Below, piece by piece: positions 796-35,664 of a DNA stretch of 64,000 bases. Every line of letters begins with the position of its first letter. Position 1 is the first letter of the stretch. A program made the translations under genes and the position numbers. The DNA comes from Jiella soli. GTDB lineage: Bacteria; Pseudomonadota; Alphaproteobacteria; Rhizobiales; Rhizobiaceae. The DNA lies in NCBI RefSeq assembly GCF_020615385.1, contig NZ_JAJAVB010000025.1:271296-335295 (forward strand), given 5' to 3'. The notes below the pieces were generated by a model. That model was not told where the DNA came from. It did not search any database and saw nothing but the letters and a program-made list of their open reading frames with translations.

Positions 796-2183
796 ACCGC
801 ATCCTCCTCGGCACGCTCGGCGCGATCGGCGAGGACGCGGTTCCAGACCGTCCACCGGAGGAGGTGCGCCGGCTGGAGCTCGTCAACGCCGCGTTGATGC
901 GCCGCATCGAGCAGGTTACCGACAGCCAGGCCAACGCCTACTCGCTCTTCCAGACGGCGATCGACCTGGAATCGCAGGTTCGCCGGCGCACCGTCGAGCT
1001 CTCGCAGGCGCTGGCACGGGTCGAACAAACCAATCGCGAGAACCTCGCCGCGCTCGAACTTGCCGACCGCGCCAACCGGTCGAAGACGAAGTTCCTCGCC
1101 GCCGCGGGCCACGACATCCTGCAGCCCCTGAATGCGGCGCGCCTCTCCCTCTCCGCGCTGATCGCATCGGGGGTGGCCGAGGACGGCCATCGCTACGCGG
1201 CGAGCATCGACAAGGCGCTCGACACGATGGAGGGGCTGATCACCAGCGTTCTCGACATCGCGCGGCTCGACGCCGGAGCGATGACGCCGGAGATCGGCGA
1301 GATCTCGCTCTACGACCTGATCGCCAGCCTTGCCGCCGAATTCTCGCCGATCGCCGAGGGCAAGGGCCTCTCGCTGAGGGTCGCGGGACCGCAGGTGACG
1401 GCGCGAAGCGACGGCGCGCTCCTGCGCCGGCTGGTCGCCAATCTCGTCTCCAACGCCATCCGATATACCCGCGAAGGCGGCGTCCTGATCGGCCTCAGGC
1501 GCCGGGGCGACCAGGTGCGGCTCGACGTCTACGACACCGGCATGGGGATCGCGCCGGACCAGTACGAGCTGATCTTCCAGGAATTCCACCGCGGCCGCGT
1601 CGCCGGCGACGATCCGCGCGCGGCGATGGGCACCGGGCTCGGGCTCGGCCTCTCCATCGTCCGGCGCATCGCCGAGGCGCTCGGCCACCGCCTGTCCTTC
1701 CGCTCGGTCGAGGGGCGCGGCACGGTATTCTCGCTGATGCTGCCGGCGGTCGCCGAGCCGGCAAGGACCGTCCCGGTGCGGACCGCAGAATTCCGGCCGT
1801 CGGGCTTCGGCCTGGCACTTGCCAAGGTCCTGGTCGTCGAGAACGACCAGAGCGTGATGGACGCGACGCTGGCGCTTCTCGAACGCTGGTCCTGCACGGT
1901 GCGCACCGCGACGGAGATGCGCGACGCCTTGCCGATCCTTTCCCATGAGCGCTTCCATCCGGACGTCATCCTCGCCGATTTCTGGCTCGACAAGGGCCAG
2001 ATCGGCCTCGACGTCGTCGAAGCCGTCAGGGCGATGACCGGCTGGGCGGTGCCGGCGATCGTGATGACCGCCGATTATTCTGCGGAGACGCAGGCCGCGG
2101 TCGAGCGCGCCGGCTGCGAACTCCTGTTGAAGCCGGTCAAGCCAGCGGAGCTGCGCGCGCTGCTCGCCCACTTGGCATCCTGA
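792..2183 (+). CDS. cytoplasmic hybrid histidine kinase with receiver domain
   Basis: This is a 463-residue soluble hybrid sensor kinase. A coiled-coil segment (about residues 20-95) leads into the H-box AGHDILQPLN with the phosphoacceptor His107, an N-box around Asn221, a DTGMGI box near 248 and a GTGLGLGLSIV G-box near 280. A C-terminal receiver domain follows from about residue 345, with Asp396 as likely phosphoacceptor and conserved Lys447. There are no transmembrane helices and no PAS domain, so sensing is probably done by the coupled FIST protein. The layout resembles the NahK/ErcS' type of kinase. The ATG at 792 was chosen because it overlaps the FIST stop by four bases; the longer open frame upstream is out-of-frame coding shadow. 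Confidence 0.88.
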   Translation: MNRILLGTLGAIGEDAVPDRPPEEVRRLELVNAALMRRIEQVTDSQANAYSLFQTAIDLESQVRRRTVELSQALARVEQTNRENLAALELADRANRSKTKFLAAAGHDILQPLNAARLSLSALIASGVAEDGHRYAASIDKALDTMEGLITSVLDIARLDAGAMTPEIGEISLYDLIASLAAEFSPIAEGKGLSLRVAGPQVTARSDGALLRRLVANLVSNAIRYTREGGVLIGLRRRGDQVRLDVYDTGMGIAPDQYELIFQEFHRGRVAGDDPRAAMGTGLGLGLSIVRRIAEALGHRLSFRSVEGRGTVFSLMLPAVAEPARTVPVRTAEFRPSGFGLALAKVLVVENDQSVMDATLALLERWSCTVRTATEMRDALPILSHERFHPDVILADFWLDKGQIGLDVVEAVRAMTGWAVPAIVMTADYSAETQAAVERAGCELLLKPVKPAELRALLAHLAS

Positions 2184-3953: not shown

Positions 3954-6638
3954 TCAGGCCGGGACCCGCTCGGACGTGCGGGCGATGACGGCGCCGATCT
4001 CGCTTCGGCAGGAGCCGCAATTGGTGCCGGCCTTCAGCGCCGCACCGACCGCCTCGACGGTGAGGGCGCGGCCGGAGGTGACGGCGGCGGCGATCTCGTT
4101 GACGCCGACGGCAAAGCAGGAGCAGACGACCGCGCCCGGGTCCGGCCGGTCGACGCCGCCGCGCCCGGCGAGCAGCCGGATGCGGTCGCGGCCGACGAAG
4201 GCGCCCTGCGAGAGGTGGCCGGCCGCCCAGACGCGGGAGACGGCGACGGGCCTTCGCGACAGGAACAGCGCGCCGGACAGGCGCTCTCCGCCGAAGGCGG
4301 CGAAGCGATGTTCGCCGGCCGCCTCGTCGCGATAGGCGAGGAGATCGCCGTCCCCTTCTGCTCCGAGCAATCTTGCCGCAAAGCCCGCGGGATCGGCGAG
4401 CGGGGCGAGACCGGCGATCTCCATCCGCCACCCGGCTTCGGCCCGCGCCATCGCGAAATAGTCGAGGCCGTCGGTCTGCGGGCGGTGCGCCGTGACGGCG
4501 AAGCCGTACCATGCGGCGGCGAAGCGTTCGAGCGTCACCGGCGTCGCCTTGAGGCCCGGCTGGCCGGAGACAGGATCGGTCGCCGGCGCGACGACCGCGT
4601 CGATGCGACCGTGCGAGGAGAATTGGCCGGTCCAGTGCATCGGGGCGAAGACGGTGCCCGGCCGCTGGCGGTCGGTCACGAGGCAGCGGATGATCGCGGC
4701 TCCCTGCGGCGAGCGGATGGTCACCAGATCGGCTTCTCCGAGCCGCAGCCGGGACGCGTCCTCGGGGTGGATTTCGGCGAAGGGCTCGGCGATGTGCGCC
4801 GACAGCCGCGCCGACAGGCCGGTGCGCGTCATCGTATGCCAGTGATCGCGCACCCGGCCGGTATTGAGCAGGAAGCCGCCGGTTCGAAGCGGTTCCGGAA
4901 GGGGCGGGCGGACGGCCACGAAGCGGGCGCGCCCGTCGGCGTGATAGAACCGGCCGCGCGCGAAGAAGCGGCGATCGCCGGCCCGATCCGCCGAGGCGGC
5001 GCTGCCCGGCACCGGCCACTGCACCGGGTGAAGCGCGTCATACCCGGTCTGTCCGAGGCCAGCGAGACCGCCGATGTCGAAGTCGCGCGATCCGGCGTTC
5101 TCCTCGGCCGACAGACGGGCGTGCTCGTCGAAGATGTCCGCAGCGCTTCCATAGGCGAAGGCGGCGCCGAAGCCGAGGCGCCGGGCGACGGCCGTAAGGA
5201 TCCACCAGTCCGGCCGCGCTTCGCCCGGCAGCGGCAGGAACGCCCGCTGGCGCGAGATCCGCCGCTCGGAATTGGTGACGGTGCCGTCCTTTTCTCCCCA
5301 GGCGGCGGCGGGCAGCGCCACATGGGCGAAGGGCAGCGTGTCGTTCTTCGCGACGACGTCGGAGACGGCGACGAAGGGGCAGGCGGCGAGCGCGGCCTTC
5401 ACCGCGTCCGCGTCCGGCATGGAGACGACCGGGTTCGTCCCGATGATCCAGAGCGCCTTGATCCGCCCATCGGCGACGGCCCGGAACATGTCCACCGCCT
5501 TCAGCCCCGCCCGCGCGGCGATCGTCGGGGATTGCCAGAAGCGCTGCACCAGCGCGCGGTGGTTCGGGTCCTCGATCTCCATATGGGCGGCCAGCATGTT
5601 GGCCATGCCGCCGACCTCGCGCCCGCCCATGGCGTTCGGCTGGCCGGTGATCGAGAACGGCCCCATGCCCGGCCGGCCGATCCGGCCGGTGGCGAGATGG
5701 ACGTTGACGATCGCATTGACCTTGTCGGTGCCGCAGACCGACTGGTTGACGCCCTGGCTGTAAACGGTGACGGTCTTTTCGGTGGTCGCAAAGAGATCGT
5801 AGAAGCGCCGGAGGTGGGCCGGTGCGAGCCCTGTCGCGGCGGCGACGGCCGCAATGTCGAACTCGTCCGCGGCGCAAAGCGCCGCGTCGAAGCCCCCGGT
5901 GTGGTCGGCGACGAAATCCCGGTCGATCGCGCGTGCCCCGGCGAGATGCCGCAAGAGGCCGGCGAAGAGCGCGGCGTCGCCGTCGGCGGCGATCGGCAGA
6001 TGAAGGTCGGCGATGTCGGCCGTCGCCGTGCGCCGGGGATCGATCAGCACGACCCGCATATCGGACCGTGCGGCCTTGGCGGCGGCGATGCGTTGATGGA
6101 TCACCGGATGGCACCAAGCCAGATTGGCGCCGACGATGACGACGAGATCGGCGCGTTCCAGGTCCTCATAGGTGCCGGGAACGGTGTCCGAGCCGAAGGC
6201 GCGGCGGTGACCGGCGACCGAGGACGCCATGCAGAGGCGCGAATTGGTGTCGATATTGGCCGAGCCGACGAAGCCCTTCATCAGCTTGTTGGCGACGTAA
6301 TAGTCCTCGGTCAGAAGCTGGCCGGAGACGTAGAGAGCGACCGAATCCGGCCCATGCTCGGCGATCGTGCCCGCGAAGACATCCGCCACCCGGCCGAGCG
6401 CCTCGTCCCATGTCGCTGGCCTGCCGCCGATCGTCGGAAAGAGCAGCCGTTCCTCCAGCGACAGCGTCTCACCCAGCGCCGAGCCCTTCGAACAGAGCCG
6501 GCCGAAATTGGCGGGATGCGCCGGGTCGCCGGCGATCGTCACGGACCCGTCCGCCTGCGGCGCCGCGAGCACGCCGCAGCCGACGCCGCAATAGGCGCAT
6601 GTGGTTCGCACCGATGTCTCGCGCGGCCGCTGTTCCAT
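3954..6638 (-). CDS. nasA: assimilatory nitrate reductase catalytic subunit
   Basis: This 894-residue cytoplasmic molybdopterin oxidoreductase reduces nitrate to nitrite. The N-terminus has the [4Fe-4S] motif CAYCGVGC followed by a fourth cysteine in RLCSKG near residue 49, typical of NasA/NapA-type enzymes. The body carries the molybdopterin-binding regions (GQPNAMGGREVGG, NPVVSMPDAD), and the molydopterin dinucleotide-binding C-terminal domain includes LNTGRVRDHWHTMTRTG. A further C-terminal BFD-like [2Fe-2S] domain (VVCSCF ... GTNCGSC) is present, as in Klebsiella-type NasA. It is the last gene of nirB-nirD-nasA and starts 11 bases after the nirD stop. No TAT signal is present, consistent with a cytoplasmic assimilatory enzyme. 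Confidence 0.95.
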   Translation of the reverse strand: MEQRPRETSVRTTCAYCGVGCGVLAAPQADGSVTIAGDPAHPANFGRLCSKGSALGETLSLEERLLFPTIGGRPATWDEALGRVADVFAGTIAEHGPDSVALYVSGQLLTEDYYVANKLMKGFVGSANIDTNSRLCMASSVAGHRRAFGSDTVPGTYEDLERADLVVIVGANLAWCHPVIHQRIAAAKAARSDMRVVLIDPRRTATADIADLHLPIAADGDAALFAGLLRHLAGARAIDRDFVADHTGGFDAALCAADEFDIAAVAAATGLAPAHLRRFYDLFATTEKTVTVYSQGVNQSVCGTDKVNAIVNVHLATGRIGRPGMGPFSITGQPNAMGGREVGGMANMLAAHMEIEDPNHRALVQRFWQSPTIAARAGLKAVDMFRAVADGRIKALWIIGTNPVVSMPDADAVKAALAACPFVAVSDVVAKNDTLPFAHVALPAAAWGEKDGTVTNSERRISRQRAFLPLPGEARPDWWILTAVARRLGFGAAFAYGSAADIFDEHARLSAEENAGSRDFDIGGLAGLGQTGYDALHPVQWPVPGSAASADRAGDRRFFARGRFYHADGRARFVAVRPPLPEPLRTGGFLLNTGRVRDHWHTMTRTGLSARLSAHIAEPFAEIHPEDASRLRLGEADLVTIRSPQGAAIIRCLVTDRQRPGTVFAPMHWTGQFSSHGRIDAVVAPATDPVSGQPGLKATPVTLERFAAAWYGFAVTAHRPQTDGLDYFAMARAEAGWRMEIAGLAPLADPAGFAARLLGAEGDGDLLAYRDEAAGEHRFAAFGGERLSGALFLSRRPVAVSRVWAAGHLSQGAFVGRDRIRLLAGRGGVDRPDPGAVVCSCFAVGVNEIAAAVTSGRALTVEAVGAALKAGTNCGSCRSEIGAVIARTSERVPA

Positions 6639-31376: not shown

Positions 31377-31602
31377 CGCTGGGTCCCCCATTCTTAGCAC
31401 GCTCAGCCGCTTTGGCAGCCGGCGCCTCGCGGGAGGTCAGTGCGGCCAGCCGATCCGGCAGTTCCTGCATCAGCTGGAGGCGCCGCTCGGCTGAAAAGCC
31501 GAGCCAGCAGGCGATCTCCTCGCCCGTGCGCCCGCAGCCAAGGCAGAAGCCGCTTTGCGGATCGAGCGTGCAGACACTGTTGCAGGGGGTTGCGATTCCC
31601 AT
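31366..31602 (-). CDS. DUF1289 domain protein
   Basis: This small protein of 78 residues shows the DUF1289 cysteine pattern, CNSVCTLDPQSGFCLGCGRT followed by EIACWLGFSAERR, suggesting a small metal- or cluster-binding protein. Its function is unknown. The ATG at 31602 gives the typical MGIATPC start; a frame extension to 31674 adds 24 residues not seen in the family. It overlaps the retropepsin-like gene by 11 bases and is likely co-transcribed with it. Confidence 0.82.
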   Translation of the reverse strand: MGIATPCNSVCTLDPQSGFCLGCGRTGEEIACWLGFSAERRLQLMQELPDRLAALTSREAPAAKAAERAKNGGPSDAT

Positions 31603-31959
31603 CGGGAAGTTGGCCGTCCATTTCTGATCGTGAGCGTCTCTTTGGGATATGGCGGCAGGCGCCCTTTGTAACAAGGATATCCTGCAAACCTTGCCGAGGC
31701 TTCATCGGCCGTGGGCCGCCAAATCCATCCCGATCGAAGCCGCTCCCGCGACTGCCCGGCATCGTGCTGAAGGCCCGGATGTCGTGCGCCGGCCTGTGGC
31801 GGTCCTTAGCTAACTGCCTATAGCCGCACATGTTTAATTCATCGCAGGAGGCTGAACTTGAGTGTCCTCCTCCGCATTGTCCCCGCCGAGGCAGATACCC
31901 CGTGGGGGTATGAGCGCACGCGTGGTGCGGGCGCTCGCCTGACAACAAAGGGACCGATC
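31603..31959. other. divergent control region of DUF1289 and Mn-catalase genes
   Basis: This 357-base region separates divergent genes. It contains the CsoR-type palindrome at 31895-31911 and a strong AGGAGG ribosome-binding-like sequence (around 31847-31852) six bases before an in-frame TTG at 31858. Translation from that TTG would add 34 residues to the catalase or make a leader peptide. No other gene was recognised. Confidence 0.55.
31895..31911. promoter_or_regulatory. CsoR/RcnR/FrmR-type palindromic operator
   Basis: ATACCCC GTG GGGGTAT is a perfect 7-bp palindrome with a three-base centre. DUF156 regulators (CsoR, RcnR, FrmR) bind AT-flanked G/C-tract palindromes of this form. It lies 49 bases upstream of the catalase ATG, and a DUF156 regulator is encoded just after the catalase, so the pairing is consistent in both site and protein. 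Confidence 0.65.
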
Positions 31960-32817
31960 ATGTTCTATCTCGACAAGCGCCTCCAATATCCGGTGAAGGT
32001 GGAAAATCCCGATCCGCAGTTCGCGCGCATGCTGCAGCAGGCCATCGGCGGGATCGAAGGCGAGATCCGCGTCGCCATGCAGTATTTCTTCCAGGGCTGG
32101 GGTGCCCGCGGCCCCAATCCGAAATATCGCGACATGCTGCTCCATACGGCCACCGAGGAGATGGGCCATGTGGAAATGCTGGCGACCGCCGTCGCCATGA
32201 ACCTCGAAAAGGCGCCGACCTCGCTACAGGAAGCGGGCGCTGCGGACGCCGTCGTCGGCGCTGTCATGGGCGGCGAGAATCCGCGGCACGTGATGGAAGG
32301 CATGCTGCACAGGCACGTCCTGTCGACGGGCCTTGCGGCTTATCCGGCCAATTCCGACGGCGTTCCCTTCGACATGTCGCACATCTATGCGAGCGGCAAT
32401 CTTGCGGCCGACATGTACTGCAATGTCGCCGCCGAGAGCACCGGCCGCGTCCTCGCCGTACGCCTTTACAACGCCGCGCATGACAAGGGCATGAAGGACA
32501 TGCTGCACTTCATGATCGCGCGCGACACCATGCACCAGCAGCAATGGCTGGCCGTGATCGAGGAACTCGGGGGGCACAAGGGCACGCTGCCGATCCCCAA
32601 TTCCTTCCCGCAGGAGAAGGAGGACCAGGAGCACAATTACGATTTCTTCGGCTCGGCCGCCGACGGCACGCCGCCGCCCGCCGGCCGCTGGACGGAAGGC
32701 GCCTCGCTCGACGGCAAGGGCAACTTCACCGTCTTCCAGAACAAGCCGCTCGGCCAGGAACCCGATCTCGGGCCGGCGCGCCCGGACAGCGGTGCGCAGA
32801 CTGAGCAGATGGGCTAA
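31960..32817 (+). CDS. manganese catalase
   Basis: The 285-residue protein is a non-haem dimanganese catalase that converts hydrogen peroxide to water and oxygen. Family residues are visible in EGEIRVAMQYFFQGW (Glu ligand near 34), TATEEMGHVEML (bridging Glu and His near 65-70), ESTGRVLAVRLY and MIARDTMHQQQW (Glu/His ligands). The C-terminal PIPNSFPQEKEDQEHNY segment is typical. The ATG at 31960 follows an AAAGGGA ribosome binding site. The message is probably shared with the CsoR-family regulator 116 bases downstream, past a GC hairpin. The palindromic operator before it suggests metal- or electrophile-dependent derepression. Confidence 0.93.
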   Translation: MFYLDKRLQYPVKVENPDPQFARMLQQAIGGIEGEIRVAMQYFFQGWGARGPNPKYRDMLLHTATEEMGHVEMLATAVAMNLEKAPTSLQEAGAADAVVGAVMGGENPRHVMEGMLHRHVLSTGLAAYPANSDGVPFDMSHIYASGNLAADMYCNVAAESTGRVLAVRLYNAAHDKGMKDMLHFMIARDTMHQQQWLAVIEELGGHKGTLPIPNSFPQEKEDQEHNYDFFGSAADGTPPPAGRWTEGASLDGKGNFTVFQNKPLGQEPDLGPARPDSGAQTEQMG

Positions 32818-32825
32818 GGATCCTT

Positions 32826-32852
32826 CAGGCCCCGCCCCGGCGGCGGGGCCTG
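32826..32852 (+). terminator. GC hairpin after Mn-catalase
   Basis: CAGGCCCCGCC and GGCGGGGCCTG form an 11-bp perfect stem with a 5-base loop nine bases after the catalase stop. There is no U-run, so it may be a 3'-stabilising hairpin or weak terminator between the catalase and the regulator gene. Confidence 0.5.
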
Positions 32853-32933
32853 AATCCCATCGGCTTCGGCTGTAGCCGGCGCGATCCCGGCCGCCATTGC
32901 CGGACCGCCGGCCTCGAAAAGGACGGACCTGAC

Positions 32934-33251
32934 GTGCCTGGCGGAGAGATCATCGGCGACCGCATCGAACTGCGGCGAACGGAGGAGGAGAAGCGGCCAC
33001 TCCTGCAGCGGCTGAAGCGGATCGAGGGACAGGCCCGCGGTCTCCAGAACATGATCGCGGAAGACCGCTACTGCCTCGACGAGGTCCAGCAGATCAATGC
33101 GATGACCGCGGCGCTGCGCGAGGTCGCGCTGATGATCATCTCGCAGCATGTCAGCTGCGGCATCGAAATTGCTGTCGAGGATGACCACAAGAAGATCGCG
33201 GTGGAGGATATCATGCGGGTCCTGCGCCCGGCGATGCGCCCAAGCGGCTGA
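32934..33251 (+). CDS. CsoR/RcnR/FrmR-family (DUF156) transcriptional repressor
   Basis: The 105-residue all-helical regulator starts at a GTG preceded by AAAAGGACGGA. It carries the family core LLQRLKRIEGQARGLQNMI and sensor residues Cys47 (RYCLDEVQQI), His72 and Cys75 (SQHVSC). Cys and His are spaced as in CsoR and FrmR, but the second cysteine is three rather than four residues after the histidine, so copper specificity cannot be assumed. It probably represses the catalase unit from the ATACCCC palindrome at 31895. The inducer could be a metal ion, aldehyde or reactive sulfur species. Confidence 0.85.
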   Translation: MPGGEIIGDRIELRRTEEEKRPLLQRLKRIEGQARGLQNMIAEDRYCLDEVQQINAMTAALREVALMIISQHVSCGIEIAVEDDHKKIAVEDIMRVLRPAMRPSG

Positions 33252-33276
33252 GAGTGCCGGCCAGGCACCTGTCGCA

Positions 33277-33292
33277 TTGACGTTTACGTAAG
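33277..33292. promoter_or_regulatory. LiuR-like palindrome upstream of fadE
   Basis: TTGACGTTTACGTAAG is an imperfect palindrome with TTxACGT and ACGTxA arms, about 90 bases before the fadE start. Similar sites are bound by the MerR-type regulator LiuR in proteobacteria, which controls branched-chain amino-acid and fatty-acid catabolism. No MerR gene is visible in the window, so this is pattern similarity only. Confidence 0.3.
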
Positions 33293-33381
33293 AGGGAGAC
33301 ATTGTTCCGGAAGGCGTCGGTGGAAACCGCCGCGCGGTCTCTACATAAGCCCGCAAGAGGGCAGCCAACCGGAGCATTCCC

Positions 33382-35664
33382 ATGTCTTTCCGAAAGGACA
33401 AGCTGACCCGGCCGATCTACCGGTGGGCGAAGAAGGTCATGCCGCCGATCTCCGAGACGGAGACCGAGGCGATCAACGCCGGCACCGTCTGGTGGGACGG
33501 CGAACTGTTCTCGGGCGCGCCCGACTGGAACAAGCTCCTCGCCATGCCGCCGGCGCGGCTGACGCCGGACGAGCAGGCCTTCATGGACGGCCCGGTCAGA
33601 GAGCTCTGCTCCATGATCGACGACTGGAAGATCGCTTCCGTCGATCACGACCTGCCGCCCGAAGTGTGGGACTTCCTGCGCCGCGAAAAATTCTTCGGCA
33701 TGATCATCCCGAAGGAATATGGCGGCCTCGGCTTTTCCAACACGGCCCATTCTGAGGTCGTGCGCAAGGTCTCCTCCTGCTCGGTCGTCGCCGGCGTCAC
33801 GGTCATGGTGCCGAATTCGCTCGGACCGGGCGAGCTGATGCTGCATTTCGGCACCAGGGACCAGTGCGACTACTGGCTGCCCCGGCTCGCCGACGGCCGG
33901 GAGATCCCGTGCTTCGGCCTGACCTCCGCCGATGCCGGCTCGGACGCCGCCGCCATGACCGATACCGGCATCGTCGAATATGGCGAGCACGAGGGCAACC
34001 AGGTCCTCGGCATCCGGCTGAACTTCCACAAGCGCTACATCACGCTCGGGCCCATCGCGACTGTGATGGGCTTGGCCTTCAAGCTCTTCGATCCGGGGAA
34101 CCATCTCGGCCGCGGCGAGAATCTGGGCATCACCGTCGCCCTGCTGCCGACCTCGACACCCGGCGTCGTCCATGGCGACCGGCACATCCCGCAGATGACC
34201 TATTTCCAGAACGGGCCGCTCAGCGGCAAGGACGTTTTCATCCCGCTCGACTGGATCCTCGGCGGCGAGAAGCAGATCGGGCAGGGTTGGACCATGCTGA
34301 TGACGGCGCTCGCCGCCGGTCGGTCGATCTCGCTGCCCTCCCAGTCGGCGGCCTCGGCGGCGATGTGCGCGCGCGTCACCGGCGCCTATGCCAGGATCCG
34401 CACGCAGTTCAACGTGCCGATCGGCCTCTTCGAAGGCATCCAGCAGCCGCTCGCCGAGATTACCGCCAACGCCTATCTGATCGACGCCGCGCGGCGGCTG
34501 ACGGTGGCCGCCCTCGACGAGGGTCACAAGCCCTCGGTGATCTCCGCGATCATGAAGGCGCACGCGACCTACCGGATGCGCGAATGCATCGAGCGGGCGA
34601 TGGACATCCATGGCGGCAAGGCGATCATCGACGGGCCGAAGAACTATCTCGGCCAGGCCTATCGCTCCGTGCCGATCGGCATCACCGTCGAGGGCGCCAA
34701 CATCCTCACCCGCAGCCTGATGATCTTCGGCCAGGGAGCGATCCGCGCCCATCCCTACATGCTGAAGGAGATGATGGCCCTGTCCGAAAAGGACGAGGCG
34801 AAGGGGCTCGCCGAGTTCGACAGGCATTTCTGGGCGCATGTCGGCCACGCCGTCACGAACACGGTCCGCGCCTTCGTCCAGGGCTGGACCGGCGGCCTCG
34901 CGGCCCCGGCGCCGAAGGACGCGGCCTTCACCGGCCACTGGCGTCAGCTCTCGCGCTACGCCTCGGCCTTCGCGCTGGTCGCCGATCTCTCGCTCCTGAC
35001 CCTCGGCGGCGCGTTGAAGCGCAAGGAGATGCTGTCGGCCCGTCTCGGCGACATCCTGTCCGAACTCTATCTCCTCGCCGCGGTCCTGAAGCGCTTCGAG
35101 GTGGAGGGACGGCCGGAGGCAGACCGTCCGCTGATCGAGTACATCATGGAAAAGGGCTATTGCCGCCTGGCGATCGCCTTCACCGGCGTGCTCGACAATC
35201 TGCCGGCGCGATGGGCAGCCGGCTTTGCCCGCTTCGTCGCCTTCCCGCTCGGCGTCCCCTATCAGGAGCCCTCGGACGAGTTGCTGCAGGAGGTGGCGGC
35301 GATCGTCATGCGCCCGTCCTCGCAGCGCGACCGTCTGACCCCCGATCTCTATCTCGGCGAAGGCCATGCCGACCATCCGGTCAAGGATTTGGAGCATGCC
35401 TTCGAGCTCGTCGCGGAAGCCGCGCCGATCGAGAAGAAGATGCGGGACGCCAGGATCCGCGATCCCGAAGCGGCGCGGGACGAGGGCGTGATCACGGCCG
35501 CCGAGTTCGACCAGCTTCAGGCCGCCAGGGCGGCCGTCGCCAAGGTGGTCGCGGTCGATGCCTTCCCGGGTGCCGATGTCTCTCCGATCGCCGCGCAACA
35601 CGATCGCGGCTCCGATCGTTCGGGAAGCGGCGCACCATCACCCTCCAGGGAGGCCGCGGAATAA
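33382..35664 (+). CDS. fadE: acyl-CoA dehydrogenase, FadE type
   Basis: The 760-residue flavoprotein catalyses the first step of fatty-acid beta-oxidation. It has the long FadE architecture with the acyl-CoA dehydrogenase core (about residues 90-480, including GLTSADAGSDAAAM, KRYITLGPIATVMGLAFKL and ERAMDIHGGKAI) and the C-terminal DUF1974 extension. E. coli FadE is 814 residues. The stop overlaps the thiolase start as TAATG, so translation is coupled. It heads the fadE-thiolase-fadJ operon. Confidence 0.94.
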   Translation: MSFRKDKLTRPIYRWAKKVMPPISETETEAINAGTVWWDGELFSGAPDWNKLLAMPPARLTPDEQAFMDGPVRELCSMIDDWKIASVDHDLPPEVWDFLRREKFFGMIIPKEYGGLGFSNTAHSEVVRKVSSCSVVAGVTVMVPNSLGPGELMLHFGTRDQCDYWLPRLADGREIPCFGLTSADAGSDAAAMTDTGIVEYGEHEGNQVLGIRLNFHKRYITLGPIATVMGLAFKLFDPGNHLGRGENLGITVALLPTSTPGVVHGDRHIPQMTYFQNGPLSGKDVFIPLDWILGGEKQIGQGWTMLMTALAAGRSISLPSQSAASAAMCARVTGAYARIRTQFNVPIGLFEGIQQPLAEITANAYLIDAARRLTVAALDEGHKPSVISAIMKAHATYRMRECIERAMDIHGGKAIIDGPKNYLGQAYRSVPIGITVEGANILTRSLMIFGQGAIRAHPYMLKEMMALSEKDEAKGLAEFDRHFWAHVGHAVTNTVRAFVQGWTGGLAAPAPKDAAFTGHWRQLSRYASAFALVADLSLLTLGGALKRKEMLSARLGDILSELYLLAAVLKRFEVEGRPEADRPLIEYIMEKGYCRLAIAFTGVLDNLPARWAAGFARFVAFPLGVPYQEPSDELLQEVAAIVMRPSSQRDRLTPDLYLGEGHADHPVKDLEHAFELVAEAAPIEKKMRDARIRDPEAARDEGVITAAEFDQLQAARAAVAKVVAVDAFPGADVSPIAAQHDRGSDRSGSGAPSPSREAAE

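Follow-up and report, generated by a model that had tools for sequence, protein, structure and literature searches.

The residues of CsoR-family regulators can be read against a fingerprint of three positions, X, Y and Z (PMC5146963, PMC5016687), and this fingerprint was used for the residue reading given below. CsoR binds Cu(I) through X-Y-Z, the metal sites described for the family use a ligand at position Z, and E. coli FrmR carries a non-ligand, Thr64, at Z (PMC5146963). Another member of the family, TTHA1953, is converted in vitro to disulfide-linked dimers by Cu(II) or H2O2 (PMC10318464). On the catalase side, the putative Mn-catalase CH00462 of R. etli is dependent on (p)ppGpp and on RpoE4, a sigma factor of the EcfG group (PMC3188799). 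The EcfG promoter is given as GGAAC-N16-CGTT (PMC3892343) and the EcfG-type motif as GGAAC-N17-20-GTT (PMC6599016). A literature search over titles and abstract openings, with subscription journals mostly outside its scope, returned no paper that pairs an Mn-catalase with a CsoR/DUF156 regulator; one print match for DUF156 with catalase was discarded, as the passage available reads DUF1566.

The locus described here places such a pair next to each other. It lies in a 64,000-nt stretch of DNA, which is referred to as the window, from a host genome of 5.51 Mb (G000). The features discussed in the text are the following.

31854 to 31857, plus strand: GAAC, possible relic of the -35 element of an EcfG-like promoter; its first base lies 41 bp before the operator
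31895 to 31911, no strand assigned: candidate operator, palindrome ATACCCC-GTG-GGGGTAT (ATACCCCGTGGGGGTAT)
31960 to 32817, plus strand: Mn-catalase of 285 aa (PF05067 Mn_catalase, E 1.8e-77)
32824 to 32854, plus strand: GC-rich hairpin with no T-run, directly after the catalase stop
32934 to 33251, plus strand: DUF156/CsoR-family regulator of 105 aa (PF02583) with a GTG start, predicted to be a repressor

The Mn-catalase locus and its palindrome

As the preliminary description had reported, the palindrome stands before the catalase ATG and the DUF156 gene follows 3' of the catalase. There are 48 bases between the palindrome and the ATG, and 116 bases separate the end of the stop codon at 32817 from the GTG at 32934. 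ATACCCCGTGGGGGTAT is the sole match at up to two mismatches in the window, while shuffled windows give a mean of 0.07 matches and at least one match in 7 of 100 shuffles. The 5.5 Mb host genome contains one exact copy and one other site with two mismatches, 31895-31911 being the only palindrome site with at most one mismatch; the reversed-pattern control over the whole genome gives one forward and one reverse match. The host genome contains 14 matches to a looser form of the operator, RTRCYC-N5-GRGYAY, compared with 7 to its reversal; ATAC/GTAT arms are present only at 31895. A regulon extending beyond the catalase was rejected on these counts.

The catalase is assigned to the manganese catalases by its PF05067 match and by conservation of the E, E-x2-H, E and H motifs in the alignment to 1jku, residues which we take to be the metal ligands. 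Its score against NCBIfam NF052557 is 321 bits, below the curated cut-off of 350. The host genome encodes one Mn-catalase and two DUF156 proteins. The second of the DUF156 proteins is encoded at L002 (G000:C17:18750-18962; ORF 1468-1734, minus strand) beside a CDF-like cation efflux ORF; it has GRDALAIAQQ at the Cys X position and is apparently without the otherwise conserved cysteine.

Fold and sensor residues of the regulator

The regulator matches PF02583 (Trns_repr_metal) with an E-value of 1.3e-20 and 74 bits against a cut-off of 22.8, and its AlphaFold model (pLDDT 93.8, from a 28-row alignment) consists of helices at residues 17-42, 47-80 and 83-101. The above-threshold profile score together with this three-helix CsoR fold places it in the DUF156/CsoR-RcnR family. 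The best match among solved structures is CsoR 4m1p (Z 11.2, rmsd 1.7, 95 residues aligned), followed by InrS 5fmn (Z 11.0), another CsoR, CstR (9.5) and FrmR (9.3). A Z-score of this size is not decisive alone for helical bundles; the sequence alignment to 4m1p agrees with it. Residues 3-14 (window 32940-32975) are confidently predicted to form an N-terminal beta-hairpin, with strands 3-7 and 10-14, ahead of the CsoR helices.

The preliminary description had proposed Cys47-His72-Cys75 as the sensor set, with a spacing that does not match CsoR exactly. All three residues are found at these positions, and alignment to 4m1p places Cys75 at His+3, whereas the CsoR cysteine stands one residue further on. 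Comparison of 39 regulators (that of L098 was left out, its gene being split) retains only the first two members of the set: Cys47 and His72, the Cys X and His Y of the family fingerprint, are each invariant in 39/39, but Cys75 is present in three, namely those of the window, Fulvimarina and A. glaciei. We have therefore rejected the three-residue set. Position 76, which corresponds to Z and the third CsoR ligand, is Gly in 29 of the 39 regulators and Ser in 10.

An ordinary copper CsoR, in which Cu(I) on Cys47-His72-Cys75 would induce the catalase against copper-driven oxidative stress, could be argued from copper CsoR 4m1p being the best match in both sequence and fold, and from the C and G runs of the window operator, which resemble a CsoR site. 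However, the positions through which CsoR holds Cu(I) include Z (PMC5146963), and the third Cys of the copper type at His+4 is absent from all 39 regulators, whereas it is present in 11/11 readable DUF156 loci taken from elsewhere for comparison (15 tried; two of the 11 identical). The copper reading is accordingly an improbable one.

The other ligands known at Z fare no better in these 39 regulators: neither the nickel-cobalt ligand of RcnR (His64 in RcnR) nor the second conserved Cys of the CstR persulfide type is present at this position. Read by the fingerprint, the residues speak against a standard copper, nickel/cobalt or two-cysteine persulfide site in this subfamily. One might still suppose that manganese, or another metal, is the signal, the Mn enzyme being made only while its metal can be had; the predicted target is a Mn enzyme, and Cys and His together with Asp49/Glu50, which are conserved in the subfamily, could hold a metal. 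Against this, the CsoR-family metal sites described in PMC5146963 use a ligand at Z, which is absent here, and none of the five neighbours scanned encodes a Mn transporter. We regard this possibility as slightly more remote than the copper one.

Since the usual copper-binding residues are missing, the regulator probably detects a reactive chemical through its single cysteine. On the fingerprint, such a one-cysteine sensor would come closest to FrmR, minus Pro2 as a conserved feature. A FrmR-like sensor of formaldehyde or another electrophile, with the catalase serving in a one-carbon or aldehyde stress response, would be in line with Cys X, His Y and the lack of a ligand at Z, a combination shared with E. 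coli FrmR (Thr64 at Z; PMC5146963), with the many Methylobacterium among the carriers of the module, and with a glutathione-dependent formaldehyde dehydrogenase gene (4634-5806) near a regulator-less Mn-catalase on a Geminicoccaceae plasmid (L143). Pro at residue 2, which lies beside Cys X in the FrmR type, is present in the window regulator and in L004, but is not seen at the remaining starts, the start codons having been picked by script. Moreover, the sensor cysteine is Cys47 as against Cys35, the N-terminus being about 12 residues longer than that of FrmR and modelled as a beta-hairpin, and no formaldehyde enzyme is encoded among the five window neighbours scanned. This reading is rather doubtful, yet better placed than either of the metal readings.

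Distribution of the regulator and of the catalase

The regulator is rare and the catalase commoner. Four relatives of the regulator were found by a scan of named genome contigs. Three are those of a Fulvimarina MAG (82%), Aureimonas glaciei (77%) and Methylobacterium sp. J-067 (64%); the fourth, from a Robiginitomaculum MAG (L006), is CsoR-like and further removed. It has Cys at His+4, and tblastn detects no catalase in the 7.6 kb of this locus. The regulator was detected in 18 of 394 family genomes (E<=1e-10), six of which, the host included, carry the close regulator group (E<=2.2e-35), and in 3 of 397 order genomes (E<=1e-17). Across the class (385 genomes, E<=1e-17) it was seen only in the window's own genome; plasmids gave no match at E<=1e-15, and viral contigs no confirmed match at the threshold used.

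The catalase was found in 37/397 order genomes (E<=1e-20) and in 69 of 111 genomes from the genus of G604 (E<=1e-60). We take this genus to be Methylobacterium, since two loci that bear that name, L005 and L145, group with those of the genus in the catalase tree. The three-part arrangement of catalase, regulator and site is seen again in relatives, Aureimonas, Fulvimarina and Methylobacterium among them.

Co-occurrence of the operator and the regulator

A set of 145 loci was reduced to 111 distinct Mn-catalase loci by removing those with no catalase hit, duplicates (loci with the same catalase and the same 100 bases before it) and L132, which has a partial start. One of the 111, L078 (G1208), has a Mn-catalase gene with an in-frame TAA. 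Operators were scored with a symmetric weight matrix built from 16 distinct sites, each locus being scored with its own site left out and against 200 shuffles; these shuffles, like those used for the promoter and for the later loci, preserve base composition (mononucleotide) and not dinucleotides.

The regulator lies behind the catalase in 40 of the 111 loci. An operator is present at p<=0.01 in all 40 linked loci (scores 5.5 to 26.9) against 4/71 unlinked ones (L119, L129, L131 and L145; scores 14.7 to 22.3), and p<=0.05 is reached by 7 of the 71. The exact ATAC-N9-GTAT within 300 bases upstream occurs in 22/40 linked loci against 1/71 others; the remaining 18 linked loci have a diverged operator near the same place, 13 of them as ATGCTCC-N3-GGAGTAC, and the family consensus is roughly rTrCyC-N5-GrGyAy. 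The weakest linked operators are those of L061 (6.7) and L098 (5.5). None of the 40 scores lower than L098 (G1156), where an insertion of about 0.8 kb interrupts the regulator gene. A profile search beside the unlinked loci, most of them with 1.5 kb flanks (L133 ends at a contig edge), revealed no divergent regulator at E<1e-3. A pseudo-palindromic TAC...GTA site is present at the predicted target promoter and co-occurs with the regulator, and we predict it to be the operator. The search for the palindrome in relatives that keep both genes, which the preliminary description had suggested, bears out its pairing of palindrome and regulator: none of the 40 is without the site, if in diverged form in 18.

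In 20 operator-aligned representatives, column identity is 0.86 in the arms, 0.31 in the centre and 0.26-0.32 in the flanks, and the outer dyad pairs 1-6 are complementary in 17-20 of the 20; the representatives were hand-picked. Their sites were chosen by the matrix, so that the arm conservation is partly by construction. With flanks so diverged, common descent alone does not explain the conserved arms.

Unlinked operators, later loci and the catalase tree

Of the four unlinked operator loci, three (L131, L129 and L119, from G1194, G1195 and G1247) have a regulator encoded at a distance: at 1.70 Mb in G1194, where the catalase lies at 3.94 Mb on the same contig, at 3.51 Mb in G1195 (catalase at 2.08 Mb), and, in G1247, adjoining a second catalase on another contig. 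The distant regulator of G1194 (L150) sits between M3 peptidase-like and ABC1 kinase-like genes, which were named by eye. No operator-like site was found around the distant regulators of G1194 and G1195 (L150 and L151) in their 3.3 kb loci, while the catalase keeps one. The fourth locus, L145, comes from an M. currus plasmid and has an operator without a regulator on its 6.9 kb stretch. These exceptions fit a regulator that could act in trans.

A search for a distant regulator in 18 genomes gave a match in nine, two of them weak (G558, at 43% identity, and G1156, a fragment of the split gene). The regulator was not found in G139, G1201, G1199, G1200, G1186, G583, G721, G764 and G1153, and the operator is absent from the catalase loci of these nine genomes. 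Genomes with a regulator can also carry a further catalase that has no convincing operator, as in L070 (G1163) and L127 (G1192; score 6.0 at -148, p 0.025).

A later search covered 149 relatives of Aureimonas, 15 of which have the catalase, and yielded a set of 13 loci, of which three repeats were not counted. The ten new loci have neither a regulator beside the catalase (0/10) nor an operator (0/10); their scores range from -12.3 to 0.6 with p from 0.045 to 0.94, two of them (scores 0.6 and -1.1) at p 0.045-0.05. As the set comprises negatives only, it bears on joint absence alone. The catalase of L165 is 86% identical to that of the window, and this locus has neither regulator nor operator.

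A quick catalase tree was built with 110 rows (L078, with its in-frame stop, was left out), in which 27 of 106 inner branches are starred and 37 are open. The regulator label changes 11 times on this tree, at least six of them on starred branches. With the operator label set by the weight-matrix scan, 5 or 6 out of the 6 independent pairs show the operator changing with the regulator, and none shows the opposite; a sign test on the pairs gives a borderline median p of 0.0625 (range 0.031-0.0625). By this reconstruction, the operator and the regulator change jointly, gain and loss not being told apart.

The palindrome might instead serve another factor or the promoter, and travel with the regulator by common descent. 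All loci are indeed related, many Methylobacterium rows are near-copies, and the sign test that corrects for descent is the borderline one just given. But the arms are conserved next to flanks of chance-like identity, changes in operator and regulator coincide on the tree, both have been kept in G1194 and G1195, where they are unlinked, and the near relative L165 is without both. We therefore judge a merely inherited palindrome to be very unlikely, and prefer the palindrome as the operator of the DUF156 protein.

Promoter and intergenic region

In 39 of the 44 operator loci, a GAAC-N16-18-GTT element ends 14-20 bp before the operator (shuffle control: mean 0.25, maximum 2). The window is one of the five misses, as it has no GTT partner at N16-18 after its GAAC, and a scan of 31600-33400 for sigma-70 promoters and intrinsic terminators gave no match. 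Among the 67 operator-less loci, the motif is found within 200 bases upstream in 33 (shuffle mean 1.4, maximum 5); the reverse-strand count of 16/67 is a poor control, the GAAC/GTT motif being partly self-complementary. The EcfG-like elements mostly come without the first G (C or T instead), and the strict GGAAC-N15-18-GTT is present in 1/40 linked against 21/71 unlinked loci. The simple idea that DUF156 control takes the place of EcfG control was considered and dropped, as the looser GAAC form occurs in 39/44 operator loci too. The host genome encodes the anti-sigma factor NepR.

From the position of the GAAC-GTT element just before the operators, the operator probably lies at or near the point where transcription from a stress-sigma promoter begins. 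At the 39 loci with the EcfG-like element, which the preliminary description had missed, control of the catalase is probably exerted at two levels.

The whole catalase-regulator gap of the window folds with a z of -2.4, 6 of 200 shuffles being as stable. Of the 40 linked loci, 32 have a folding energy of at most -25 kcal/mol in the 60 bases past the catalase stop, as raw values with no shuffle control. The hairpin may keep regulator expression low. In L136 (G036) the gap is about 340 bases and contains a second operator-like site, ATACTCCCCATAAGTAT (score 18.8), 85 bases after the catalase match, a position that fits autoregulation.

Proposed mechanism and inducer

The predicted fold, the candidate operator, its co-occurrence with the regulator, their joint change on the tree and their separation in some genomes all come from comparison, and are together consistent with a dedicated repressor-operator-catalase module, with an EcfG-like promoter beneath it in most of the relatives examined. 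We put the probability of this reading at about 0.85. The DUF156 protein would bind the ATAC-yC-N5-Gr-GTAT palindrome just 3' of the catalase promoter core, and we infer that it represses rather than activates, so that the bound protein would keep both the catalase gene and the regulator gene that follows it from being transcribed. The inducing signal would act at the invariant Cys47, assisted by His72, and free the operator. With the EcfG-like promoter in use in most relatives, the catalase might then be synthesised under general stress combined with the specific signal.

An oxidant or electrophile is favoured as the inducer over copper. Since the target enzyme is a catalase, peroxide or another oxidant would be the leading candidate, at somewhat short of even odds; formaldehyde or another electrophile is a clear minority possibility and a metal of any kind a little less probable again, whereas a persulfide seems unlikely and any further signal highly so. 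The fuller proposal of an oxidant-sensing branch of CsoR/DUF156, in which a one-cysteine repressor acts 3' of an EcfG promoter and the catalase needs both stress and oxidant, is tentative, and the odds are against it in this complete form.

If the module is real, Mn-catalases would gain a dedicated transcriptional regulator, of which none was found in literature titles and abstract openings, and DUF156 repressors, which act in the handling of metals, formaldehyde and sulfur, would also come to govern an enzyme that removes peroxide. Should the regulator sense an oxidant, it would represent a further kind of dedicated catalase control besides OxyR and PerR. One invariant cysteine, no Z ligand and a candidate operator make the signal of this minimal DUF156 sensor directly testable.

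Comparison with known systems

R. etli CH00462 resembles the catalases described here as a putative Mn-catalase under EcfG, an EcfG-like element being present at most of our loci; it differs in that a DUF156 operator is not mentioned in the available text of its description (PMC3188799). CstR and TTHA1953, which are persulfide or redox sensors, are likewise thiol-based DUF156 regulators. TTHA1953 has two cysteines (C39 and C68), as against the one conserved here, and its site is given as TACNNTACNNNNGTANNGTA in the part of the source available (PMC10318464).

The Cu(I) sensor CsoR (M. tuberculosis 2hh7, G. thermodenitrificans 4m1p) has in common with our regulator the three-helix DUF156 fold with RIEGQ-RG in helix 1, Cys X, His Y and, here as a candidate operator, a TAC/GTA palindrome with C and G runs. 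In contrast to CsoR, Z is Gly or Ser here and supplies no third ligand, and the predicted target is a catalase and not copper handling. FrmR (E. coli 5lbm, S. Typhimurium 5lcy) shares Cys X, His Y and a non-ligand at Z, and its gene adjoins that of the enzyme it controls, just as the gene of our regulator adjoins that of its predicted target. The regulator described here differs from FrmR in having no conserved Pro2, a longer N-terminus and another target enzyme, and the enzyme gene comes first.
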